Source: Sulfurovum sp.
GTDB lineage: Bacteria; Campylobacterota; Campylobacteria; Campylobacterales; Sulfurovaceae
NCBI GenBank assembly: GCA_027081395.1
Contig: JALWKQ010000084.1
Location: 1 to 50,229 of the forward strand
Length of the DNA: 50,229 bases
Reading direction: 5' to 3'
Part shown: piece after piece, positions 17,624 to 39,092 of the stretch
How positions within the stretch are numbered: position 1 is the stretch's first letter
Layout: every line of letters starts with the position of its first letter
The notes under the pieces: generated by a model
Told to the model about the DNA's origin: nothing
Databases searched by the model: none
The model's input: the letters and a program-made list of their open reading frames with translations, nothing else
Program-made: the position numbers and the translations under genes

Positions 17624-17652
17624 TTGACATTAATTTGATATTTGATTATACT
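17624..17652 (+). promoter_or_regulatory. Sigma-70-type promoter of the FadL-family gene
   Basis: TTGACA (17624-17629), 17-bp spacer, TATACT (17647-17652). Confidence 0.75.
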
Positions 17653-17685
17653 ATTCGCTACATCTACAAAAGGATAAGGAAAAAC

Positions 17686-18972
17686 ATGAAAAAAAATACA
17701 TTTACCAAAATTGGTACAGGTATTGCTCTGTCACTCGTGGCAACAACAATGCTTCACGCAACTAATGGAGATACATTAATAGCTGTCGGTGCAAAAGCAA
17801 GAGGTATGGGTGGAACAGGTATTGCTGTCAGCCATGGTGCAGAATCTACCATCAGTAACCCTGCAATGATCACTACAGTAGAGGGTACTGAAATCTCATT
17901 TGGTGGTACAATTTTTATGCCTACCATTGAAACATCCCTAAACACTGTTACAGGTATGCCTCCTCAGCCTAGTCTTACAAGTGATGCAGATATCAATATG
18001 ATTCCTGAAGTCTCATTGGCACACAAAATTAATGATAACTGGTATATCGGTGTTGGTATGTGGGGAACAGCAGGCATGGGTACAGACTACAGTAAAGCAC
18101 AACACACTCCTTTTACTAACGGTCAATACGGTAACCTCAATATGGTAACAAATCTTCAGCTTATGCAATTTGCTATTCCGGTTGCATATAAAACAAATAA
18201 TTTAAGTGTTGCATTTGCACCAATTCTGCAATATGGTAACCTCGACATCAATTACAAAATGCCAAATAGTGCTACAGGTACAAGTGATACTATTGGAGCA
18301 GGCTTGGCGCAGGACTTTGGATTTGGCTGGTCTACAGGACTCTCTTATGACTTTAAAAACGGTCTTGTATTGGGTGCTGTATACAAATCTTCTATCAAAA
18401 TGAATTATAGCGGTCAACTTTCAACCGCTACTAGTCCGTTTGTCGGGATGGGTATTTTCCCTGCACCTATGTCTGATACACTTGAGCAACCGGCAGAGTA
18501 TGGTGCTGGACTTTCATACACTACAGGACAACACACTATTGCATTTGACTACAAAAAGATCAAATGGTCCTCTGCAAAAGGATATAAGGATTTTGGATGG
18601 AAAGATCAAAATGTTTATGCTTTGGGATATCAATTCAGTCAAGATAACTGGGCACTGAGACTTGGATACAACCATGGCTCAAGCGCTGTAGTTGAACAAC
18701 AAGAGACTGGCAATGGCGTTGGATCGGCATTGAACTTCTTTAACCTGCTTGGATTCCCGGCAACAGCAGAAAATCACTATACTATTGGTGGTACTTATGA
18801 GTTTTCTTCACAGTTCTCTCTTGATCTTGCCTATGTATACTCTCCTAGTAATAAAGAGACTTTTACCACCGCTGCATTCGCTGCAACACCACCTGCAGGC
18901 TTTGGTGTAAACTCTATTACTACTGATCACAAAGAATCGAGTCTTTCTTTCCAGCTGACATATAAATTTTAA
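17686..18972 (+). CDS. OmpP1/FadL family outer membrane transport protein
   Basis: Signal peptide; 'GAKARGMGGTGIAVSHGAESTISNPA' N-terminal hatch motif, beta-barrel, terminal aromatic 'LTYKF'; SD AAGGA before ATG 17686. Confidence 0.9.
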   Translation: MKKNTFTKIGTGIALSLVATTMLHATNGDTLIAVGAKARGMGGTGIAVSHGAESTISNPAMITTVEGTEISFGGTIFMPTIETSLNTVTGMPPQPSLTSDADINMIPEVSLAHKINDNWYIGVGMWGTAGMGTDYSKAQHTPFTNGQYGNLNMVTNLQLMQFAIPVAYKTNNLSVAFAPILQYGNLDINYKMPNSATGTSDTIGAGLAQDFGFGWSTGLSYDFKNGLVLGAVYKSSIKMNYSGQLSTATSPFVGMGIFPAPMSDTLEQPAEYGAGLSYTTGQHTIAFDYKKIKWSSAKGYKDFGWKDQNVYALGYQFSQDNWALRLGYNHGSSAVVEQQETGNGVGSALNFFNLLGFPATAENHYTIGGTYEFSSQFSLDLAYVYSPSNKETFTTAAFAATPPAGFGVNSITTDHKESSLSFQLTYKF

Positions 18973-18975
18973 AAA

Positions 18976-18996
18976 TTTCCCCCTATTCGGGGGAAA
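18976..18996 (+). terminator. Hairpin after the FadL-family gene
   Basis: TTTCCCCC-TATTC-GGGGGAAA perfect 8-bp stem starting 3 nt after the stop codon. Confidence 0.7.
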
Positions 18997-19097
18997 CATA
19001 CACTTAACTTTTAAAGCTCTCTCCTTCTTAAGTATATTATTATAAAATATTTATGTATAGAAATTATTATAATAAATAATTTATATAAAGGAAGTCT

Positions 19098-19928
19098 ATG
19101 AAAAAGAAAGTTCTACTAACTCTTTTACTCTCTTATGGTATCTATGCCAACACCATCTCCATTACCGGTACGGTTGTCTCTGACAACCAGAAGTACATCG
19201 GTGCGCGCTATATGGGCTATGTCAAGGATGTCTATGTGGAGATCGGAGACAAGGTCAAGCGTGAGGATACCCTTTTTGAGATGGAATCGGCCGAATTTGA
19301 CATCCTCAAAGAGCAGGCAAATCTCGCCCTCGAGCAGTCAGAGACGCTTGTCGATGTCTACCGAACGAGACTCGATGAGATCCGGCGGGAGAAGAGACTC
19401 TTTCGCAATAAAAAATATGCAAAAGATTTCGACTTTGAAGAGTGGAGTGAAAATCTCGAGATCTCTGCCGAGCATGCACAATCTATGCTGAAGGCGATGC
19501 AGACCATGGTCAAAGAGGCTGCCCAGAAGGTCAAAGAGATCAGTGTCATCTCACACTACCTTGAGGTCAAAGCACCCAGCAACGGCATCATCGTACAGAA
19601 AAACCTGCATGTCGGCGATCTTGTCATGCCGGGATTTCCTGTAATGATCCTCGTAGATCTAACGCATCTGGAGATCGAGGCACAGATATCTGAAGCGGAT
19701 ATCCTCAAAGTCAATGAAGGTGACTTTGTACGCTTTGAGATCCCCTCTATTCACTACAAGGGTCACGGACGCATCAAATCGATCGTCCCCAGTGCCAATC
19801 CAATGACCCATACCTTTACGATCCGTATCACCTTCAAGCGCAAAAATCCCAAAATCTATCCGGGCATGTATACCAAGATCAAAATAGAGTATGACCCGGA
19901 AGTATTAAGAGAAACAACAGACGAGTAG
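19098..19928 (+). CDS. Efflux RND periplasmic adaptor subunit (HlyD/MFP family)
   Basis: Signal peptide; 'GYVKDVYVEIGDKVKREDTLFEME...VKAPSNGIIVQKNLHVGDLVMPGFPVMILVDLTHLEIEAQI'. Confidence 0.9.
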   Translation: MKKKVLLTLLLSYGIYANTISITGTVVSDNQKYIGARYMGYVKDVYVEIGDKVKREDTLFEMESAEFDILKEQANLALEQSETLVDVYRTRLDEIRREKRLFRNKKYAKDFDFEEWSENLEISAEHAQSMLKAMQTMVKEAAQKVKEISVISHYLEVKAPSNGIIVQKNLHVGDLVMPGFPVMILVDLTHLEIEAQISEADILKVNEGDFVRFEIPSIHYKGHGRIKSIVPSANPMTHTFTIRITFKRKNPKIYPGMYTKIKIEYDPEVLRETTDE

Positions 19929-19929
19929 T

Positions 19930-21750
19930 CTACAACGTCTCGTCGTCCTTCCTCTCACATTTCCTCTTGGGAAAGAGTATATCCTTGAGATTCTCCTTGA
20001 GGACACACCATGCCGGTGTCGGAGGAGGTGCATCCAAGTCATCCTCACAGGTATCCTCCTCTTTAGGTACCAATGCCTCTGCACCATCCATCAACACAGG
20101 AATAAAAAAGAGTGCCACCAGTGTCGCAGCGATAGATCCGAAGATCAAGGCGATCCCCAGTCCCCCAAATATCGGATCGGTAGAGAGAAGCAAAGAGCCC
20201 AAGATGATCGCAACAGCTGTCATCAAGATAGGCTTGGCTCGTGTGGCTGTAGACTTGGCGATTGCCTCCTTCTTATCCATCCCCTCTTTGATCAGACTAC
20301 GTGAGAAATCGATCAGCAGCAGTGAACCACGCGCACTGATACCCATCAGGGAGATAAAGCCGATCAGAGATGTAGCGGTCAAGAAGAAGTTGATATCCTT
20401 GAATGCCAGGAAGATCTTGTCAGTGATCCAGTGACCGAAAATCACCCCGATAATAGAGAGAAAACTCCCTGCAAGCACTATGCCACTAAGCGCAAATGAT
20501 TTGTAGTAGACCACCATCAGCAAAAACATCAGTATCAAGGCTGCAATAAACGCCCCGCCGAGATCCCGGAAAGTATCGAGCGACACCTTCATCTCGCCAT
20601 CCCATCGTATCAAGACCTTCTCTCCGCTCTTTTTGTCTTTGGCATGCAGATCGAACATATAGGTGGAGATACCGGGGTCTTTGGTGACATTGTACTCATC
20701 TTGAAGTGCTTTGAGCATTTTGTCTCTTGCTTCAAGGAGCGGATAGACCTGCGATACCATATCACACTCAGCCGTGATGATCGCCATGTTTTTGAGGTTT
20801 TTACGGAAGATCGTAGGAGATGAGGGCATCTCTTTGATATCGACCACCTCCACAAGCGGCACCATCATCCCCCGTCTGTTCATCAGGCGCAGTGTAGAGA
20901 GCTTGCTGTGCAGTGCCTCTTTGCTCTCTCCTTGTATCTTGCGTGAATGCTCATCGAGACGCACGAAGATAGGTATCTGATCCTGCTGGTTTTTGGTGTT
21001 TTTAACCGCAACAGGCATCCCTTTGAAGGCAAGATAGATGATCTGATTGACCTGGTCTACCCCCAGACCACTTTGGATGATCTTCTCTTTGTTTGGGCTG
21101 AGCATATAGGTCGGGTAGATCTCATCGAGCATCACATCGACATCCACAAGACCATCTGTCTCTTTGAGTATCTTGGCAACGCGCTCTGCCATATGACGCA
21201 GCTGTTTGTCAGACTTGCTATAGAGCTCTATGACGATTGTAGCCAATGTAGGAGGACCTGAAGGCATCTCGATAAACTTGATAGAGGTACCCGGTTTGAT
21301 AGGCTCACACGCTTTCTGTATCGTAGGACGGATTCGGTGTACCATCATATAGGAGGGTTCTTCACGATGGTTTTTGTCTGTTAGATTGACGACGATCTCC
21401 GCCTGATTTTGAAAACGCTTGAAGGCACTCCCCTTCACCAATCCCGCATAATCGAGCGGTGCCCCCTGTCCAAGGAAGACCTCCATATCGGTCACCTCAG
21501 GTTCCTGCTGCAGCTGTGCCACCACACACTGCGCCACATCTCGTGTTTCATGGATCGAAGAGCCAGTGGGTGTATCGATATAGATACTGAAGGTATTGGC
21601 ACTTTTGCCCGGCAGCATCTTTGCCAAGACCAGCTTGGTCGGTATCATCGCCACTGCCCCCATCAAGGAGAGCATCACCAAAGCGATAACGATCCACTTT
21701 TTTTTTCGGCTTTGCAAGATAGAGAGGAGAAAACGCTCGAACTTACCCAT
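19930..21750 (-). CDS. RND transporter, C-terminal half (TM7-12 plus second periplasmic porter half)
   Basis: Starts with a TM7-like segment and ends with 'GISARGSLLLIDFSRSLIKEGMDKKEAI...TRAKPILMTAVAIILGSLLL' C-half AcrB-family signature. Confidence 0.9.
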   Translation of the reverse strand: MGKFERFLLSILQSRKKKWIVIALVMLSLMGAVAMIPTKLVLAKMLPGKSANTFSIYIDTPTGSSIHETRDVAQCVVAQLQQEPEVTDMEVFLGQGAPLDYAGLVKGSAFKRFQNQAEIVVNLTDKNHREEPSYMMVHRIRPTIQKACEPIKPGTSIKFIEMPSGPPTLATIVIELYSKSDKQLRHMAERVAKILKETDGLVDVDVMLDEIYPTYMLSPNKEKIIQSGLGVDQVNQIIYLAFKGMPVAVKNTKNQQDQIPIFVRLDEHSRKIQGESKEALHSKLSTLRLMNRRGMMVPLVEVVDIKEMPSSPTIFRKNLKNMAIITAECDMVSQVYPLLEARDKMLKALQDEYNVTKDPGISTYMFDLHAKDKKSGEKVLIRWDGEMKVSLDTFRDLGGAFIAALILMFLLMVVYYKSFALSGIVLAGSFLSIIGVIFGHWITDKIFLAFKDINFFLTATSLIGFISLMGISARGSLLLIDFSRSLIKEGMDKKEAIAKSTATRAKPILMTAVAIILGSLLLSTDPIFGGLGIALIFGSIAATLVALFFIPVLMDGAEALVPKEEDTCEDDLDAPPPTPAWCVLKENLKDILFPKRKCERKDDETL

Positions 21751-23491
21751 GTGGCTGCTCCTTAGTTACATTTTCATCACCTGCATCTTCTTCGCTTGCA
21801 TGCGCTTGACCATCCTCTTTGTCATGTGCATGCTTGTGCGCCATCACCTCGGCTTTGATCTTGCGGAAATTGAGCCATTTTTTAGCAAGAAACGGAGCAA
21901 AAACATACGCCACAAAGAGTGAGACCGCCAGTCCTACCGGCACATTGAGGGGAATCGGCTTCATGAACTGCCCCATCATACCTCCGACAAATCCCATAGG
22001 TACCATCGTCAAAATGATCGCTATGGTCGCAATATTGGTCGAGGGACCGATCTCGTCTGTCGCCTGTACAATGATCTCATCAACACTCTTTTTGTCGATA
22101 TCGAGATGGAGTCGTCGATGGATATTTTCGATCACGATGATCGCATCATCCACGATGAGTCCCAAAGAGAGCAAAAAGGCAAAGAGCGTAATACGGTTGA
22201 TCGTCTGATCGGTCAACTGCGCGATAAAGAGCGTCGTTGCCAAGATCATCGGCACGGCAACGGTCACAACCATCGACTCACGCCATCCAAGGAAAGGTAT
22301 CAATATCAGCATAATGATAAAGATCGTGATCTCCAGATGGTGTACCAGCTCATTGACCGCTTCATTGGCACGTTCACCGTAGTTACGCGTGATGACAAAT
22401 CCTACGCCTGCTTTGTTGAGTGCCTCTTTGGACGCTTCGATCTTCTCTATCGCCTCTTTGGCGATCGTGACGGCATTGGTGCCTTTGAGCTTGGAGACGG
22501 TCATCGTGATCTGCGAATCGAGCGGACGGAACGTGACCTCATTGCTCAAGTTCTCTTCTCCTTCCACTTTACGGTGTTCGTTGTAGCGTATGATCTCAGG
22601 CTCCTTCTCCATCCCCTCCTGATAGCTGATAAGCGCATCCTGATAGTTCTGGATATCATAGCTGTACTCCACATCGGCAATGTTTTTGAGATAGATAGGG
22701 GATCCCATATAAGATGCGATGATTAGATCCTTCAGGTCTTCGATCGTATCGATCGCATTCTCTACCCCGAAAACGATCAGTTTTTTCTGTCCGTTCTCTG
22801 TATCGATCAGCGGCGCATTGGTCGAGATCGCTTTGATCGCCTGCGCGACCTGTCCGAGTGATATATGGTAGGCAGAGAGCTTGTGCAGGTCGATCAAGAC
22901 GTTATACTGTGGACGCTTGACCCCCTTGAGTGTGGTTTTGGAGACATTCTCCAGTGCGTTGATCTCGGTTTGCAGTTCACGGATCGTCTTGTAGAGTTCT
23001 ACCACATTCATCTTTGTGCCTGGCAGACGGTAAAAGGCGGCAGTCAGGATAGGAATGTCGATATCGATATCAAAGGGTTTAACCAGCGGCGGCATCGTCC
23101 CTTTGGGGAGGTGATCCATATTTTGCATCACTTTGTCATAGAGTTTGAGGTTGGAGGATTCGCGATCCTCTCCGATAAAATACTGTACATTGACGATGCC
23201 AAAATTGTTCATCGCAACACCGTAGATATGCTCTACCCCTTTGATCTCACGTATCTTGCGCTCCAGAGGCTTGATGACCACATTGAGTATCTCCTTTGGG
23301 GAGGCACCGGGCAATGCTACGATTACCGCACCTCCGCTCACTTCGATCTGTGGATCTTCCTCACGGGGCATGGTATTGAGCGAGATAAACCCCAAAAGCA
23401 GAATAGAGATAGCCAATATAGGTGTCAGGGGGTTTCTCAGAAACAGCTTCGAGAGATGCCCTGCAATATTTTTTATTTTGTACACTTCCAT
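21743..23491 (-). CDS. RND transporter, N-terminal half (TM1-6 plus first periplasmic porter half) with His/acid-rich C-tail
   Basis: 'RNPLTPILAISILLLGFISLNTMPREEDPQIEV', 'SLGLIVDDAIIVIENIHRRL'; C-tail HKHAHDKEDGQAHASEEDAGDENVTKEQPHG. Confidence 0.9.
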   Translation of the reverse strand: MEVYKIKNIAGHLSKLFLRNPLTPILAISILLLGFISLNTMPREEDPQIEVSGGAVIVALPGASPKEILNVVIKPLERKIREIKGVEHIYGVAMNNFGIVNVQYFIGEDRESSNLKLYDKVMQNMDHLPKGTMPPLVKPFDIDIDIPILTAAFYRLPGTKMNVVELYKTIRELQTEINALENVSKTTLKGVKRPQYNVLIDLHKLSAYHISLGQVAQAIKAISTNAPLIDTENGQKKLIVFGVENAIDTIEDLKDLIIASYMGSPIYLKNIADVEYSYDIQNYQDALISYQEGMEKEPEIIRYNEHRKVEGEENLSNEVTFRPLDSQITMTVSKLKGTNAVTIAKEAIEKIEASKEALNKAGVGFVITRNYGERANEAVNELVHHLEITIFIIMLILIPFLGWRESMVVTVAVPMILATTLFIAQLTDQTINRITLFAFLLSLGLIVDDAIIVIENIHRRLHLDIDKKSVDEIIVQATDEIGPSTNIATIAIILTMVPMGFVGGMMGQFMKPIPLNVPVGLAVSLFVAYVFAPFLAKKWLNFRKIKAEVMAHKHAHDKEDGQAHASEEDAGDENVTKEQPHG

Positions 23492-23629: not shown

Positions 23630-24415
23630 ATGATGAAAAAACTCTCTGTAGTCATCACACTGCTGCTGCTCAGTGCAGTCTCACTTCAGGCACAAAAGAT
23701 CTCTGCATACTTCAATGCACCCTATGCAGACACCAAAACAGTCAAAAGCAATCTGAAAAAAGCGGGCTTCAAAGTCTTGGCTACCTATCACCCGGCAGGC
23801 CACTCTGATCTCAATGTTATCGTCATCACTAACAACAAGCTCAAATCACTTGCTTCCAAACCCAAAAGAGGATTTGCGGCGATCCAAAGAGTCATGGTAG
23901 ACGACAGCAAGAAAACGGTACTCGCAACCAACCCAAAATATTGGCTCAAAGCTTTTATGCAAAAAGATTTCCAGCCGGGAAGTGCCAAGCCGATCAAGGC
24001 ATCTCTCTCCAAAGCGCTGGGAACACTCACCCCGACAAAAGACAAGCTCCCTGCAGGAAAACTCTCAAAATACCACTTCATGCTCTCTATGCCTTACTAT
24101 GAGGATATGCTTGAGTTCGGTGCGAAGTCAGGTGTCAAAGCGAAGAAGAAAGTCTTTGAGCTCAAGCTTGCAAACGGCAGCAAACTCATCGGAGTCAATA
24201 TGGGTAAAACCGGTGAAAGCTTCGTAAACAAGATCGGTACGGACAAAGCGATCCTTCTACCGTATACAGTACTGATCGAAGATGGCAAAGCCTATGCTCT
24301 CCATCCGAAGTACTATCTTGCGATCTCTTATCCACTGCTCAGCATGGGACAGTTTATGAAGATCTCAAGTGCACCCGATACGATCGAAAGAAAGTTGAAA
24401 AAAGCACTTAAGTAA
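23630..24415 (+). CDS. Conserved-looking secreted/periplasmic protein of unknown function
   Basis: Signal peptide MKKLSVVITLLLLSAVSLQA; no confident family recognised. Confidence 0.75.
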   Translation: MMKKLSVVITLLLLSAVSLQAQKISAYFNAPYADTKTVKSNLKKAGFKVLATYHPAGHSDLNVIVITNNKLKSLASKPKRGFAAIQRVMVDDSKKTVLATNPKYWLKAFMQKDFQPGSAKPIKASLSKALGTLTPTKDKLPAGKLSKYHFMLSMPYYEDMLEFGAKSGVKAKKKVFELKLANGSKLIGVNMGKTGESFVNKIGTDKAILLPYTVLIEDGKAYALHPKYYLAISYPLLSMGQFMKISSAPDTIERKLKKALK

Positions 24416-30657: not shown

Positions 30658-30705
30658 ATTCCTAATTCCTAATTCCTAATTCCTAATTCCTAATTTCTAA
30701 TTCTA
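30658..30705. repeat. Tandem heptamer array, 5 perfect ATTCCTA units plus ATTTCTA and ATTCTA variants
   Basis: Direct reading; last partial unit contains the stop codon (30703-30705) of the MMPL gene. Confidence 0.95.
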
Positions 30706-33129
30706 TTTGATCCATCCCCGCTTCGCCGCGACAATCATCAATGCGGGTGCCAGCAGGAGATCCGCCAACAGTGCCAGCAGGATCACCGAACCGGTTAAAA
30801 GCCCGAAGTTCTGCACAGAAATCATCTGCGCCATCATATAGGAGTAGAAACCTAATGAGAGTACAATAGTCGTGATCAGCATCGCCTTACCCGTCGTAAA
30901 GAAAGTATGACGTATCGCCTCGGCACTGTTATGGGTCTCATGATAGTATCGCATAAAATTGTGCATAAAATGTATCGTGTCATCCACTGCGAGCCCGATA
31001 GCGATACTTCCGATCAGCAATGTGAACATATCCAGCGGTATATCTGCGACATACATAATGAGCAGCCCGAGGATAATCGGTGTGAGGTTGGGGATCATAC
31101 TGAGCAGTCCCAGACGTACTGAGCGCAGGATAAGCATCATCATAAACGAGATCAGTACAAATGCGATCAGATAGCTGCGGACAGAGGAGCGTATCGCCTG
31201 ATCGAAGGTATTGATCAGCAGCGGTATCATCCCTGTTACCTCTACTGTGTCGTCAGGGAAGGTCTCGGTAAAGACCTTCTGGACATGCTGCTCTACCTGT
31301 ACCGCTTTGACAGCATCTGTCCATGGCAGTTTGATCGTGACACGCGCTTTGGAGAACTGGCTGTCCACAACATCCTCAAGATCGTCACTGCCTGAGTTTT
31401 CAAAGAGCAGCAGCTCCTGGGAGACCAGATCTTTCTCTTTGGGGATCGTATAGTAGCGCTCATCGTTGCCGTGCAGTGCGCGGTTGGTCTCTTTGACGAT
31501 CGTTGCGAGGGAGATCACTTTGCCCACATGGGTATAGGGATCGGTATATTGCTCGAGCTGGGCAGAGAGCTTGTTGAGCTTCGAGAGGCGTACCGGATCA
31601 TTCCAGCCGTTCTCTTTGCCTGTATCGACGATCGCTTCTATGGTGACAGTACCGTTCATATTGGCATCGATCTTCTCTGTAGAGAGACGGATATCGTTGT
31701 TGGGCTTGAACCAATAGAGCGGATTGTGCGAGAGCTCCAGCTTCGAAGCGGCAAAGAGCGCTGCGATCACCAGCAGGACACTTACTGCTATGATCTGCTT
31801 GTAGTAACGTACAGGGATCACAGAGAGTGCTGCCATCACCCTGTCCAGTCTGCCCGGCTCTTTTTTGGGCTTGGGCTTGAGCGGCGTGAGTGAGAGCAGT
31901 GCAGGCAGCAGGGTCAAGGTGAGCAGCAAGGAGACCATCACACCAAAGGAAGCGAAGATACCAAGATCCGAGATCGGCGCCACTTCACTTCCGGCAAACG
32001 AGCCTACACCGATCGCCGTTGTCACCGATGTCATGGCTATCGCAAGACCGGAGTGCCCCAGCGTATAGGAGATCGACTCTGCCTTCTCTCCCGTTTCATT
32101 GAAACGGTCAAAGAAGATCGAGAGGATATGCACCGTTGCCCCCACACTCACTGCCAGCAGCAATGACGGGACGATCTGGGTCGGCAGCTTGAACGCTGTG
32201 CCTGTCCATGCCATCAGCCCCACAGTCGCCAGCAGCGAAAGAATGATCACGATCAGCGGATAGACCACCGCACTCACACGTCTGAACATCAAAAAGAGAA
32301 ACACGATAATGATCAAAAAGGTCACCCGGGTAAACTTCTGCATATCCGCACGCATCTGCGCCTTGAGTCCATCGAGTACCACCGGCGAACCTGCTACATA
32401 TATCTCAAGTCCCTTCTCTTTGTACTTCTTGACGATCTCATAGACTTTACGTACCAGCTGGGCATTCTCCTGATCGGTCAGGAAAGGTCTCTTCTCTTCT
32501 GTCTGAGAAGTGGCGGTATCATCCGCACTACCCTCCTCAGCACCCTCATCGAACCCTTCATCAAAATTGTCTGCTCCTGTAGCGTTCTCCTCTCCTTGAT
32601 GGGAGTAGGCATCGGTCTCTATGATGATGGTCGTCATCTTGCCGTCACGGGAGAGCAGCAGGTCTTTGTAGAGGTGAGAAGCCATCGCCATCTTTTTGAC
32701 CTTGGCGACATCGGCTTGACTTTCAGGGAAAGGCTCAAGCAGATCATCGGTGATGAGCTCATCCCCTCTACCCCGTGTGTTTCTCACATTGTACAGTGAA
32801 GTGATCTCATCAACATAAGGCACCTTGCTTTCAAGCTCCTCATGTAAGTTCCGCAGGGTCTTTAGAAAACCGAGCGTAAAGATCTTATCACTCTTGATCG
32901 CGATCGCCACACGCTCATCACGTCCAAACTGCTCACGAAAGCGGTTGTACTCCAGCAGCACAGGATCATCCTCATGCATAAAGCCCTCCGTAGAGGTATC
33001 AAACTTGATCTGAGGCACATGGATCAGTACCGGCAGCAGCAGTGCCAGGCTCAGCAGGATCACTTTGATAGGATGATGGGCGATCCACAGCCCCATATGG
33101 CGCATCTTCTCTTCGAGGGTTTTGTACAT
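30703..33129 (-). CDS. MMPL/RND-superfamily exporter (hydrophobic/lipid exporter-like)
   Basis: 808 aa, two TM-SSD-like halves; 'VSVGATVHILSIFFDRF', 'IAIGLAVDDTIHFMHNFMRYY'; acidic periplasmic insert DNFDEGFDEGAEEG. Confidence 0.9.
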   Translation of the reverse strand: MYKTLEEKMRHMGLWIAHHPIKVILLSLALLLPVLIHVPQIKFDTSTEGFMHEDDPVLLEYNRFREQFGRDERVAIAIKSDKIFTLGFLKTLRNLHEELESKVPYVDEITSLYNVRNTRGRGDELITDDLLEPFPESQADVAKVKKMAMASHLYKDLLLSRDGKMTTIIIETDAYSHQGEENATGADNFDEGFDEGAEEGSADDTATSQTEEKRPFLTDQENAQLVRKVYEIVKKYKEKGLEIYVAGSPVVLDGLKAQMRADMQKFTRVTFLIIIVFLFLMFRRVSAVVYPLIVIILSLLATVGLMAWTGTAFKLPTQIVPSLLLAVSVGATVHILSIFFDRFNETGEKAESISYTLGHSGLAIAMTSVTTAIGVGSFAGSEVAPISDLGIFASFGVMVSLLLTLTLLPALLSLTPLKPKPKKEPGRLDRVMAALSVIPVRYYKQIIAVSVLLVIAALFAASKLELSHNPLYWFKPNNDIRLSTEKIDANMNGTVTIEAIVDTGKENGWNDPVRLSKLNKLSAQLEQYTDPYTHVGKVISLATIVKETNRALHGNDERYYTIPKEKDLVSQELLLFENSGSDDLEDVVDSQFSKARVTIKLPWTDAVKAVQVEQHVQKVFTETFPDDTVEVTGMIPLLINTFDQAIRSSVRSYLIAFVLISFMMMLILRSVRLGLLSMIPNLTPIILGLLIMYVADIPLDMFTLLIGSIAIGLAVDDTIHFMHNFMRYYHETHNSAEAIRHTFFTTGKAMLITTIVLSLGFYSYMMAQMISVQNFGLLTGSVILLALLADLLLAPALMIVAAKRGWIK

Positions 33130-33131
33130 TC

Positions 33132-34028
33132 TTACTCCTTGTTGTTTAATTGTTGTTCTGCGATCATCTTTCCGGTTTCGATCACTTCATAGGCACGGTG
33201 AAACTCATAGAAATCACAGACATCATAGGGGATGTCTATCATGATATCCGGTGCATAGCCTGCCATTTTGCACTTAAATACGGCATTTTGCATCACATCG
33301 ATCGTGTGTCCCATCACTTCAAGCATACTCATCTCCCGTGACTCCTCCCCTTCAGGCTGCGAGAAGAGTGTCTGTGCCTTTTGTGCCATCTCCACAAAAA
33401 GATCAGAGAGACTCTCTACTTTTTTTGCTTCCTCTTTAGGAACGCTGACCCTGAGATTTGCTCTACTCTCACCGTTGAGATTGACCGCGATGGTCATATC
33501 GGTGATATCTGCAAGGGTGGGTGCGATGGGCAGAGGGTTGAGCACACCGCCGTCTACAAGCACCATACCCTCTCTGTGTACCGGTGTAAAGACCGAAGGG
33601 ATAGCGATAGACGCACGGATCGCATCGAGCAGATCACCTTTTTGGAACCAGATCTCTTTTTGCTTGACGATATCGGTTGCTACTGCGGTAAAAGAGAGTG
33701 GCAGCTCCTCGATATTGATATCACCTACCATCTCCCGGATCACCGAAAACACCTTGCCTCCCTCTATCAGACCACCGTGCTGCATAGAGAAGTCGAGCAG
33801 CGATGCCACATCCATCGCATCAAGACCAAGTACCCATGCTTTGTACGCTTCCAGCTTGCCGCAGGCGTAAAGTCCGCCAATCAACGCTCCCATAGAAGAG
33901 CCTGCGATCGATACGATCTCATACCCCTGTGCTTCCAACACTTCGATCACACCGATATGGGCATAACCTCTTGCTCCACCGCTGCCCAGTACCAGCGATA
34001 TCTTTTTCTTTTTGGCTTCTATTTTCAT
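33132..34028 (-). CDS. Patatin-like phospholipase (RssA-type)
   Basis: 'LGSGGARGYAHIGVIEVL', GxSxG 'IAGSSMGAL', catalytic 'LVDGGVLNP'. Confidence 0.92.
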   Translation of the reverse strand: MKIEAKKKKISLVLGSGGARGYAHIGVIEVLEAQGYEIVSIAGSSMGALIGGLYACGKLEAYKAWVLGLDAMDVASLLDFSMQHGGLIEGGKVFSVIREMVGDINIEELPLSFTAVATDIVKQKEIWFQKGDLLDAIRASIAIPSVFTPVHREGMVLVDGGVLNPLPIAPTLADITDMTIAVNLNGESRANLRVSVPKEEAKKVESLSDLFVEMAQKAQTLFSQPEGEESREMSMLEVMGHTIDVMQNAVFKCKMAGYAPDIMIDIPYDVCDFYEFHRAYEVIETGKMIAEQQLNNKE

Positions 34029-34038
34029 AGACTTCCTC

Positions 34039-37000
34039 CTACGCTACTTTGCCTATCTCATACCATTTGCGCAGCCATCTGTCCAAAGGGCTGATCAGAC
34101 GGTATATCACCGGAACGACCAAAAGGGTCAGGAACATCGAGCTAAGCAGACCGCCGATGATGGAGATCGCCATTGGTGCTTTGGTCTCACTCCCCAATCC
34201 TGTAGCCACTGCCAGCGGGATCATCGCAAATACCATCGCAACTGTCGTCATCAGGATCGGTCTGAGTCGTTTCTCCCCAGCTTCGATCAGTGCACTGTCG
34301 GTATCCTTGCCCTCTTTGATCGCTTCATTGGCGAAATCGACCAGCAAAACGGCATTCTTGCCTACCATCCCCATCAGCAGCATAAAGCCGATCATCACAA
34401 AGAGACTGAACTGTTCGCCACTGAGATAGAGTGCGAGCATCACACCGATGATGCTAAGCGGCAGCGCGACCATGATGATCACCGGCTGGATCAGAGACTC
34501 ATAGAGGATCGCCAGGATGATAAACATCAATATCACCGAAAGGGTCAGTGCAGCAGCAAAGGCATTGGCAGTCTTCTCCATCTCTTCGGCGAAGCCTGTG
34601 AAGCGGTAGCTTACCCCTTCAGGCAGCAGTGTAGAGAGTTTCTGGCGTGTATACTTCACCGCACTTCCCAGATCCAGACCGAATAGGTCGGCATAGATAC
34701 TCACCTGCCGCTCTCTGTCGTAGTGATAAATCGTCGCCAAAGAGCGCGTCTGCCTGAAATCTACCAGTCCGTCAAGCAGGATTAGTGCGCCGTTTTTGGC
34801 ACGCAGCTGTATCTGCTTGAGATCCTCGAGAGAGACACGGTGCGCATCATCAAAACGCAACGTGATATTGTACTGCTTGCCGTGCTCCTCAAGGTAAGAT
34901 ATCTCCAGGTCACTCGAAAAAGCAGTCGCGATCGCCTGTGCGATCTGCAGTGCTGTGATGCCATAACGGCTGGCATTAGTGCGGTTAATCACGATATCGA
35001 TCTGAGGCTTGCCCTCGTCAAGATTGGTGTCGATATCGACAAAACCTTTCTTCTTTGCCAGATAGGCTGTCAGGTTTTTCGCTGCCTCTTTGAGCTTCTC
35101 AAAAGAGTCTGACTTGAGTACGATCTGATAAGGCACACTCGCCCCTGCTCCTTTGATCACAGGGATCGCAGCTGCAGTGATAAACATCTCTTGCTGCAGC
35201 GGTTTGAACTTTTCTCTGAACATCTGGATGATCTCTTCCTGGTTCTGCTTTCGCTGATCTTTGGGTGTGAGCTTGACGTAGATGAGTGCTTTGTTCTTCT
35301 CCTGAGCCGGGTTGTAGCCGACACTCAGTGTGGTATAGAGCACCCTCTTGTCTGCGCGCAGGATCGCTTCGACCTTCTTGGCACGTCTGACCGTCTCTTC
35401 AAGCGAGAGACCGGCATCTGCTTTGATCTTCACCTCAAACTCCGATTTGTCCTCTTTGGGGATGAAGTCCATACCGATCTTGGGAAAGAGACTCAACGAT
35501 GCGACAAAGACCCCTACCACAAGCAGGATCGTCAGATACTTAAACCGCAGTACCGTCTTGAGCATCTTCTCGTAGCCCTTCTCTATCGCTTTGAAGATCG
35601 GCTCGGTCATACGGTAGAACCTGCTCTGCTTCCGCTGAAGTACCCGGGCACTCAGGCTTGGGATGAAACTCAAAGCAACGGTATAGGAGATAATGATCGC
35701 AAAGCCCACCGTCATCGCAAATGACTCAAAAAACTTCCCGACAATACCGCTCATATACGATACAGGGATGAAAACCGCCAACAGCATCGCAGAGATCGCA
35801 AGGACGGTAAAGGCGATCTCTTTGGTACCCTCATAGGCAGCCTGGAACCTGTCCATCCCATCTTCGATCTTTTTGTAGATATTTTCGATGACGACAATCG
35901 CATCATCGATGATGATCCCGATCGCCAGTGTCAGACCGATCAGTGTGAGTTTGTTGAGATTGTATCCCATATAGTCCATCAGCGCAAATGTCCCCAGTAT
36001 CGAAGCGGGGATTGAGAGTGCCGAGACAAAAGTGATCGTCACATTGCGCAAGAAGACAAAGACGATGATCATCGCAAGGATCGCACCGTAGATCAGGTCA
36101 AACTCCACATCTTTTAAAGAGTGTATGATAAAGGGGGAGGTGTCATTGAGTATATGCACGTCGAAGCGGTCGCCTGCCATCTTCTGAAGCAGCGGCACAC
36201 TCTCTTTGACCTTTTTGGCGATCTCGATCGTATTGGTACCGGAGATCTTCTGCACCTCAAGCATCACACCCGGTGCATCGTTGTAAGCGGCATAACTCTT
36301 GGGGTCACTGAGTGCATCGACGACAGTAGCGATATCTTTGAGGCGAATCCCCTCTTTGATCTTGATATTTTTGAGATCCTCGACGCTCATCGCATCGGCT
36401 TTGGTCTTGAGGGTAAACTCTCTGTTTTTGGTGATCAGCTTGCCGCCGCCAACCTTGACATTCTCTGCTGAGACGATGTTGTTGAGTTCACGTACTGTGA
36501 TGCCGTATTTGTTGAGTTTCTGGGGATCGGGAAAGATCTTGATCTCACGCTCTTTGTATCCGACGATATGGATTGCTCCGACGCCATTGATCTTTTGCAA
36601 AGCAGGCTTGACTTTCTCATCGGCAAAAAGCATCAGATTTTTGACAGTATCGTTCTTGACACTCAAAAAGACGTTTATGATCGGTGCACCGCCGATATCA
36701 AGTTTGCTTATCAGCGGCACTCTGGCATTTTTGGGCAGTGAGATCGCAGAGACTTTGTCACGTACATCGTTGGCAGCCTCATCGATGTCACGTTCGAGAA
36801 AGAACTTGACCGTAACGACGCTGACCCCCTCACTGCTCGATGAGACCACACTGTCGATCCCTCCGATACGGGAGATCGCCTCTTCGACCTTCTCTGTCAC
36901 CTGGGACTCTACCGTACTCGCATCCGCCCCCGGATAGACTGTCTTGATCGTCACAATGGGAAAATCGATATTGGGAAAGAGTGCCGAAGGCATCGACTTG

Positions 37001-37080
37001 AAACTGATGAACCCGAAGATCATCAGCGTCAAGATATACATCAGCGTAGTGATCGGGCGGTTGATGGCAAGTTTGTACAT
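34039..37080 (-). CDS. Efflux RND transporter permease (AcrB/AcrD/AcrF family)
   Basis: 1013 aa; 'NRPITTLMYILTLMIFGFISFKSMPSALFPNIDFP', 'AIGIIIDDAIVVIENI', 'GMVGKNAVLLVDFANEAIKEG'. Confidence 0.95.
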   Translation of the reverse strand: MYKLAINRPITTLMYILTLMIFGFISFKSMPSALFPNIDFPIVTIKTVYPGADASTVESQVTEKVEEAISRIGGIDSVVSSSSEGVSVVTVKFFLERDIDEAANDVRDKVSAISLPKNARVPLISKLDIGGAPIINVFLSVKNDTVKNLMLFADEKVKPALQKINGVGAIHIVGYKEREIKIFPDPQKLNKYGITVRELNNIVSAENVKVGGGKLITKNREFTLKTKADAMSVEDLKNIKIKEGIRLKDIATVVDALSDPKSYAAYNDAPGVMLEVQKISGTNTIEIAKKVKESVPLLQKMAGDRFDVHILNDTSPFIIHSLKDVEFDLIYGAILAMIIVFVFLRNVTITFVSALSIPASILGTFALMDYMGYNLNKLTLIGLTLAIGIIIDDAIVVIENIYKKIEDGMDRFQAAYEGTKEIAFTVLAISAMLLAVFIPVSYMSGIVGKFFESFAMTVGFAIIISYTVALSFIPSLSARVLQRKQSRFYRMTEPIFKAIEKGYEKMLKTVLRFKYLTILLVVGVFVASLSLFPKIGMDFIPKEDKSEFEVKIKADAGLSLEETVRRAKKVEAILRADKRVLYTTLSVGYNPAQEKNKALIYVKLTPKDQRKQNQEEIIQMFREKFKPLQQEMFITAAAIPVIKGAGASVPYQIVLKSDSFEKLKEAAKNLTAYLAKKKGFVDIDTNLDEGKPQIDIVINRTNASRYGITALQIAQAIATAFSSDLEISYLEEHGKQYNITLRFDDAHRVSLEDLKQIQLRAKNGALILLDGLVDFRQTRSLATIYHYDRERQVSIYADLFGLDLGSAVKYTRQKLSTLLPEGVSYRFTGFAEEMEKTANAFAAALTLSVILMFIILAILYESLIQPVIIMVALPLSIIGVMLALYLSGEQFSLFVMIGFMLLMGMVGKNAVLLVDFANEAIKEGKDTDSALIEAGEKRLRPILMTTVAMVFAMIPLAVATGLGSETKAPMAISIIGGLLSSMFLTLLVVPVIYRLISPLDRWLRKWYEIGKVA

Positions 37081-37089
37081 CGATCTCTC

Positions 37090-37842
37090 CTACTGCTTCT
37101 GTGTGAGGATATAGCCATCCCCAAAGAGTCCCGGCAGCAGATCCTCAGCGAGTACCTCCGCCTCCAGCTTCCTGTCTTTGCTTCTTGCTGCAGGATAGAC
37201 CTTGCTGATGTGCCCCTCTCTTGGCGTATCTGAACCGTCGACCTTGTAACGGAAAGTCTGCCCTGCTTTCACAAGGTCATGGTACTTCTGATCGAACGTA
37301 AGGATCAGTTTGCGTTTGCGGGTACTTTGCAGCTTGAGTGCGGTACGGATCATTGCACCGCTTACCACATCCCCCTCTTCGATCAATTTCTCGTAGATCA
37401 CCCCGTCAAAAGGCGCTTTGAGCAGTGTCTTCTCAAGCAGTGCTTTCTGGTATGCAAGCTGTGCTTTGGACTGCTCATACTTAAACGCGAAATTGTCCAG
37501 CTGTGCCTGATCGATCAGATGTTTGACCTTGAGCTGACGCTCATAGGCTCTTTTGGCATACTTGTAATTGGTCTGTGCCACATCAAGCAGTGCTTTGAGG
37601 TCATCGTTTTTCAACGAAGCGAGAACCTCTCCGGCTTTGACCTCTGAGCCGACATCAACATTGACTTTGTCGACAATCCCTCCGGCACTGAAAGCGAGCT
37701 CAGCACGCTTGAGCGGCTGGACAGTAAAGGTCGCATAGATCTCCTCTGCAAAGAGTGCTGCACTCAACAGCATGATTGCCATCAACCATTTGGAAAGGAT
37801 GGATGTGTTGTTGTTTTGGTATTGTATTTGTCTCTGCTTCAT
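37090..37842 (-). CDS. Efflux RND periplasmic adaptor subunit
   Basis: 'GGIVDKVNVDVGSEVKAGEVLASL', 'LKAPFDGVIYEKLIEEGDVVS'. Confidence 0.9.
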   Translation of the reverse strand: MKQRQIQYQNNNTSILSKWLMAIMLLSAALFAEEIYATFTVQPLKRAELAFSAGGIVDKVNVDVGSEVKAGEVLASLKNDDLKALLDVAQTNYKYAKRAYERQLKVKHLIDQAQLDNFAFKYEQSKAQLAYQKALLEKTLLKAPFDGVIYEKLIEEGDVVSGAMIRTALKLQSTRKRKLILTFDQKYHDLVKAGQTFRYKVDGSDTPREGHISKVYPAARSKDRKLEAEVLAEDLLPGLFGDGYILTQKQ

Positions 37843-39092
37843 CGTATATACTCCTTGGGATCTCTGCCTGCACTGTAGTAGAGCTCCGATTTGGCGATCT
37901 CATACGCATAGTGTGTCTCTTTGTATCTCGCTCTGGCAAGTGTCATTTTGTTGAGCGCATCGAGGTAGGCGATATCGTCGACCAGACCAGCCTCATATTT
38001 CTTTCGAATGGCACGATAGGTACTCTTTGCCGCTTTGAGTGAAGCGGAGGCACTTTGCAGTTTGGCACGCAGTGTTTTGAGTCGCTTTTGGGAGAGATGG
38101 TACCGCATCTTCTGTGCCTTGATACTCTGGGTGTACTGCGACTGCAGTGCCAGCTTCTTATAGCGCAGTGCCTCACTCTCTTTGGCGATACGCCCATGGT
38201 CATACAGACGCATATGCACAGAGAGACTCAGCTTGTTCTGATGGTCTGGCAAAAAGGTATCGGTATCAAAACCCGGCAGTCCCTGACTCTTGGAAAAGTG
38301 AGACCTGCTATAGGTATCTTCCAGTCGCAGATGAGGCTTGTATCCCGCTTCGAGCGCACGGGCATTGGCTTCGATGCTTTGCGCAGTGGTCTCAAGTATC
38401 CTGCTCTTTTCATCAGGTGAAAACCCTATATGCCGAGGCTCCCTGATACGCTGTGAAGCGAGCTTTTTGACAGGCAGACCGCTTAGAAGCGAGAGGTTCT
38501 GACGTGCTGTTTCTATATTGAATTTGGTATTTTCGATCTTGTAACGGATCGCGGCATAGGCAGCTTCAAGTTTGTCTGCCTGCTCCTGTGTCGCCAGTCC
38601 CTCTTTGACGAATTTACGTATACGCCGCAACTGGGCTTTGAGCTCCTTGGCTTCGCCATAGAGTGCCTGCAGCATCGCTTCGAGCGTCTTCTCGGTATAG
38701 TAGTTGCGGATGATCCGGAGTGTGATACTTTTGCCCAGTGCCTCTTTTTCGTAGGTGGCACGTGTGAGTTCACTGCTTTTGGCATCGATGAGTGCCTTCC
38801 TGCGTCCACCGTCATAGAGATCGACCCCTACCGATACAAAACCGGTGGCGGTATCTCTGGGAGAGACGATGGTAGAGGGGTTGATCCTGCTGTAACTCGC
38901 CCCGATATCGACAATCGGCCAGTAGCTGCTCTGCTCGGCCTCTTTTGCCTTTTGGCTGGAGAGGATCAATGCATCTTTTGCCAGGATATCCCCATTGTGA
39001 CTCTGGGCATGCGTGATCAATGTACGCAGACCGACTCCACCCGATGCCGCAAGACAGAGAGGAAACAGTGAAATAGCAATCAGACGCTTCAT
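37839..39092 (-). CDS. TolC family outer membrane protein
   Basis: Signal peptide; long coiled-coil TolC repeats; operon position upstream of adaptor and permease. Confidence 0.9.
   Translation of the reverse strand: MKRLIAISLFPLCLAASGGVGLRTLITHAQSHNGDILAKDALILSSQKAKEAEQSSYWPIVDIGASYSRINPSTIVSPRDTATGFVSVGVDLYDGGRRKALIDAKSSELTRATYEKEALGKSITLRIIRNYYTEKTLEAMLQALYGEAKELKAQLRRIRKFVKEGLATQEQADKLEAAYAAIRYKIENTKFNIETARQNLSLLSGLPVKKLASQRIREPRHIGFSPDEKSRILETTAQSIEANARALEAGYKPHLRLEDTYSRSHFSKSQGLPGFDTDTFLPDHQNKLSLSVHMRLYDHGRIAKESEALRYKKLALQSQYTQSIKAQKMRYHLSQKRLKTLRAKLQSASASLKAAKSTYRAIRKKYEAGLVDDIAYLDALNKMTLARARYKETHYAYEIAKSELYYSAGRDPKEYIR

Follow-up and report, generated by a model that had tools for sequence, protein, structure and literature searches.

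The locus described here raises the question whether two overlapping reading frames, each resembling half of an RND permease, are the remains of a damaged gene or a pump made in two pieces, and, if the latter, how such a pump arose. It lies in the window, that is, the whole 50,229-nt stretch of Sulfurovum sp. contig JALWKQ010000084.1 that was analyzed. An earlier note on this DNA had described frames of 582 and 606 aa with an 8-nt overlap and AAGGAG 7 nt before the second ATG, which was confirmed base for base; the N-half tail and C-half leader also match its quotation. The frames and their junction are as follows.

21743-23491, minus strand: N-terminal half of the split RND permease, 582 aa, with TM1-6, the first porter domain and a cytoplasmic C-terminal tail.
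19930-21750, minus strand: C-terminal half of the split RND permease, 606 aa, with a pre-TM7 helix, TM7-12 and the second porter domain.
21743-21750, minus strand: N-half/C-half overlap ATGGGTAA, 8 nt, containing the C-half start and the N-half stop, a class found in six of 108 junctions.
21758-21763, minus strand: internal Shine-Dalgarno (SD) sequence AAGGAG, 7 nt 5' of the C-half ATG (21750-21748) and formed by codons of the N-half tail.

It is very likely that the locus is a conserved split AcrB/HAE1-like proton-driven RND exporter, cut once early in Campylobacterales, with its halves rebuilt into a 12-TM protomer. An RND pump of the ordinary single-chain form is encoded at 34039-37080 of the window and several more elsewhere in the genome, so the split is a property of one pump family and not of the RND pumps of this organism generally. 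The single-chain pump of the window, 1013 aa long, belongs to an ordinary efflux cluster (30703-39092, minus strand): upstream of it are ORFs resembling an adaptor and TolC, and the cluster also encodes a patatin and an MMPL-type transporter.

Relatives were searched in 150 genomes of the order and were present in 105, and 72 loci were taken from GTDB contigs; 138 junctions were extracted, of which 108 were left once near-duplicates had been removed. The same split, which the earlier note had proposed as a true one and not an indel, recurs in these 108 non-redundant junctions of Campylobacterota, stands in three single-contig genomes, and is present in the window's own genome as a paralogue on another contig in the order TolC-adaptor-N-C. 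For Sulfurovum mangrovi and Sulfuricurvum kujiense, RefSeq lists each half as an intact permease CDS. WFYB01000127.1, an independent contig of Sulfurovum, carries the same split, with halves 99% (N) and 96% (C) identical to those of the window; between the two, one amino-acid change was counted against 64 synonymous codons in the N core, and 17 against 113 in the C core. Judged from these sequences, both halves are maintained by purifying selection, since amino-acid changes are few and synonymous ones many.

The tree comprised 84 pumps, 71 split and 13 fused, the latter from other Campylobacterales families and from single-ORF pumps of Pseudomonadota and Cyanobacteria. One branch (SH-aLRT 100) separates all split rows from all fused rows. 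Close relatives with one continuous ORF, which would have spoken for an indel, were not found among the 71 rows of the split clade, and the nearest single-ORF relatives share about 50% (N-half) and 39% (C-half) identity or less. Two genomes that seemed to hold fused members within the split clade proved to have same-frame halves with a stop between them. In family f5, some genomes carry fused and split copies together. No residues are missing at the junction: the halves align with fused relatives end to end and differ from them only in the variable TM6-TM7 loop on the cytoplasmic side. Since the split rows form one clade and the root is placed among fused pumps, the tree indicates that the split pumps stem from one ancient gene fission in this loop, an order of events that hinges on rooting outside the split clade. 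As part of the best explanation, the fission of the single ancestral gene would, in all likelihood, have occurred early in Campylobacterales evolution.

That the split reflects faulty sequencing or assembly, or a frameshift that recently inactivated an intact gene, has next to no probability: the assembly is fragmented and 79% complete, an A9 homopolymer and possible slippage site (21698-21706, minus strand) lies about 45 nt past the junction within the C-half (not at the split), and broken copies occur in a few relatives, but recurrence in single-contig genomes and an independent contig, the tree, purifying selection on either side of the junction and a C-half with its own SD and start codon rule this out.

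The junctions themselves fall into a few overlap classes, mainly -1 (45 junctions) and -4 (30), then -8 (six) and -13 (five), with others ranging from -38 to +9. Short -4 and -1 overlaps link the translation of two genes and are over-represented among genes for subunits of heteromeric complexes (PMC10666635; PMC6728339). About 30% of the junctions have neither of these classic overlaps, and gaps of 0 to +9 exist, which counts against the coupling model. An SD match four or more bases long precedes 90% of C-half starts and 70% of N-half starts, versus 19% of 4151 internal ATGs taken as a control. The translational coupling proposed earlier is thus borne out as far as the arrangement of SD and overlap is concerned, which is typical of coupling; the dependence of the C-half on translation of the N-half is what we infer from it. 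Ribosomes would end the N-half and restart at the overlapping C-half start, aided by the SD sequence in the tail, and such coupling would give near-equal and co-localized synthesis of both halves.

Programmed frameshifting or stop read-through that fuses the halves into one polypeptide is highly improbable. Some relatives would suit such recoding, their halves sharing a reading frame and being separated by a stop alone (TAG-ATG), but the frame relation varies among relatives (overlaps of 1, 4, 8 and 13 nt as well as in-frame gaps), so no single recoding event joins all of them, and the SD sequence before a separate start codon is kept at nine tenths of the junctions.

The two halves correspond to consecutive parts of one permease. 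Along the 1021 positions of the Pfam profile ACR_tran (PF00873), the N-half reaches position 494 and the C-half begins at 517, with scores of 231.2 and 161.3 bits, respectively, against a curated cut-off of 28. AlphaFold2 models of the single chains, which are of moderate confidence (pLDDT 77-79; one plasmid-record row was omitted from the input for each half), have six long membrane-type helices per half, the first of them followed by a large mixed domain, and in the PDB structure comparison both halves match AcrB-type pumps. The overall rmsd of the N-half to AcrB is poor (about 13 A) and the domains of its model are probably mis-oriented; the models back the fold family only. The heavy-metal HME pumps (CusA/CzcA, TIGR00914) were considered and rejected, the halves scoring 113.1 and 88.3 bits versus a cut-off of 701.45 that is set for the whole protein; for each half this score is also lower than that of RND_permease_2.

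RND pumps are believed to owe their two halves to a gene duplication, and the proton relay spans both halves. One element of this relay in the window is the following.

22145-22150, minus strand: TM4 Asp448-Asp449 proton-relay pair (equivalents of AcrB D407/D408), D448 being invariant and D449 replaced by Ala in most split relatives.

With positions set by alignment to solved pump sequences, the relay residues of TM4, TM10 and TM11 are present as D448 (with D449), R474 in place of Lys, R504 and T511, and D448, R474, R504 and T511 are invariant in 71 of 71 split rows. At the second TM4 Asp (AcrB D408 position), 47 of the 71 split rows have Ala and five of eight fused Campylobacterota rows have Ser; type B, the 23-row clade of the window's pump, has Asp there and keeps the motif VDDA, while almost all remaining split pumps have VDAA. 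The relay is distributed over two chains, with Asp448/449 on the N-half and Arg474, Arg504 and Thr511 on the C-half. Because these residues are divided, neither half should pump alone and pairing should be obligatory. The usual single-polypeptide form is replaced by two ORFs in the window and throughout the split clade; we therefore call the pump a split variant of an AcrB/HAE1-like RND permease and not an ordinary member.

Three neighboring genes recur with split pumps.

19098-19928, plus strand: gene of a 276-aa membrane fusion protein, the periplasmic adaptor, which converges with the C-half gene and is its likely partner; adaptors lie beside split pumps in relatives.
17635-18972, plus strand: FadL/TodX-type outer-membrane protein gene upstream of the adaptor, a neighbor retained in the nearest relatives.
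23630-24415, plus strand: divergent gene of a 261-aa protein, predicted from its sequence to be exported, with no Pfam match; homologs recur beside split pumps.

The family of the 261-aa protein was found in 28 of 150 genomes, one longer homolog having a weak DUF302 match. As to the outer-membrane partner, the local protein is FadL-like, TolC proteins are encoded elsewhere and the adaptor is adjacent. Type A pumps, which resemble the paralogue, usually lie in an operon of the order adaptor-N-C, preceded by TolC in the cases checked. The adaptor position is varied in type B, and in the nearest relatives of the window's pump the adaptor gene runs convergently toward the pump and follows a gene for a FadL/TodX-like outer-membrane protein. 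As to the substrate, this neighbor is no more than a hint at hydrophobic compounds. In the window, the porin-like gene and the adaptor (17635-19930) run head-on into the pump genes; since the adaptor and C-half stops are one base apart, the adaptor-side and pump transcripts may overlap. A convergent adaptor outside the pump operon is unusual for RND systems and counts against the best explanation.

A further possibility is that the halves are separate 6-TM subunits of another architecture, like SecD/SecF, and not a rebuilt AcrB protomer. SecD and SecF are RND-superfamily halves on two polypeptides, separately encoded in many bacteria and known in both split and fused forms (PMC4139356), and the N-half just reaches the threshold of Pfam SecD_SecF_C (20.5 bits). 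Membership was rejected, as the N-half scores 30.2 versus 160 for TIGR00966, and both halves remain under the SecD/SecF model cut-offs. The ACR_tran scores (231 and 161 bits) are far higher and the halves match its two parts in order, AcrB-type relay residues lie on the expected chains, and an adaptor is alongside. SecD/SecF also differ in belonging to the Sec export pathway and in being an old gene pair, whereas the split pump is a late fission of a fused one. We consider this architecture very unlikely. The simplest model is a rebuilt 12-TM protomer in a trimer: by homology, the N-half and C-half would pair in the inner membrane and probably reassemble into one 12-TM protomer, three of which would form the usual pump with the neighboring adaptor. 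Association of the halves, their stoichiometry and transport are what we infer from the sequences.

Two groups of cysteines were observed in the C-half. Periplasmic Cys75 (21526-21528) and Cys148 (21307-21309), both on the minus strand, are invariant in all aligned Campylobacterota pumps, split and fused, and their equivalents are missing from pumps of other phyla; they may form a disulfide. The second group is near the C-terminus.

19957-20049, minus strand: three-Cys motif CEDDLDAPPPTPAWCVLKENLKDILFPKRKC at the C-terminal end of the C-half, which the nearest split relatives conserve.

The motif, C-x(n)-[WLM]C[VIT]L-x2-[NS]-x(n)-C, occurs in 16 sequences of the nearest split relatives, some of them near-duplicates. 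It is better preserved than the His-rich tail of the N-half and could be a cytoplasmic metal or redox site.

The tail is the part of the locus for which a function had been suggested, namely to bind metal or to regulate pairing of the halves.

21746-21868, minus strand: N-half cytoplasmic tail, residues 542-582, with a predicted membrane-proximal helix (542-570) followed by a His/acid-rich, low-confidence end.

Its His enrichment is genuine: the last 20 residues of N-halves contain 2.0 His versus 0.28 in 593 background ORFs from the collected loci; the rows compared are related, so that the P value overstates independence. His accounts for 14.8% of the residues in the 108 tails and for 1.6% in the core; one His or more is present in 101 tails, and several type A tails have His6 runs. 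As for the same tail in relatives, the enrichment is common, but length and sequence differ in nearly every one. The C-halves of two relatives start with MPHHHH, so His clusters are possible on either side of the junction.

The enrichment favors the idea that the tail is the functional reason for the split, acting as a cytoplasmic metal sensor or handle that controls pairing. Several observations argue against it, and we regard it as unlikely. Between the window and WFYB01000127.1 the tail has five amino-acid changes and two synonymous codons, so far as these counts go the least constrained part of the gene and almost free of constraint. The earliest-branching split group has a tail of 0-4 residues with no His. 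His-containing linkers are also found in single-chain relatives, so His in this loop predates the split and is not tied to it, and the metal-pump family models score under their cut-offs. A variant for type B, in which the His-rich tail and the conserved three-Cys tail of the C-half form an inter-chain cytoplasmic metal site that locks the halves or gates assembly by metal supply, seems very doubtful.

Part of the tail composition has another source. Codon choice in the SD zone leans toward GAG and GGA, at 0.75 and 0.95 versus 0.44 and 0.59 in the rest of the tail; the zone is 66% Lys/Glu/Gly, with 3.4% His versus 17%. Because these codons encode the SD sequence, they account for the terminal K/E/G stretch and part of the acidity. 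The composition thus points to last residues shaped by the SD sequence and a His part that is a separate compositional feature. Under the preferred reading of an early fission, the tail would very probably be, for the most part, a remnant of the linker that changes fast and holds the SD sequence.

Compared with known systems, the split pump is like AcrB/HAE1 permeases (PF00873; structures of MdtB, MexK and AcrB) in fold, order of the halves, relay positions and adaptor; known members consist of a single chain of some 1000-1100 aa, whereas here the relay residues are shared out between two chains. MdtB/MdtC is a pump of two different RND polypeptides, each a full-length duplicate, in contrast to the two halves in the window. 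The Rhizobium nodulation pump nolGHI, also of the RND type, was reportedly described at first as separate genes. A current review gives nolGHI as a single gene and mentions the mdtB/mdtC gene pair (PMC8277102); the split described here is backed by comparison of many genomes. The split-pump sequences are already in databases under a generic permease name. In the open-access literature, subscription journals being outside the scope, no account of an AcrB-type pump with a natural, conserved split came to light, nor anything direct on split RND pumps, half-pump co-expression or gene fission.

In summary, a large group of sulfur-oxidizing Campylobacterota has had this pump in two parts since a single ancient event, and its halves almost certainly have to meet after synthesis. 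A lineage that has long kept the halves separate, and in which the split form has been duplicated, provides a natural experiment on whether half-pumps are able to fold, pair and exchange, and a test case for how translational coupling builds membrane complexes. It is also a warning to annotators that these split permeases are not pseudogenes.
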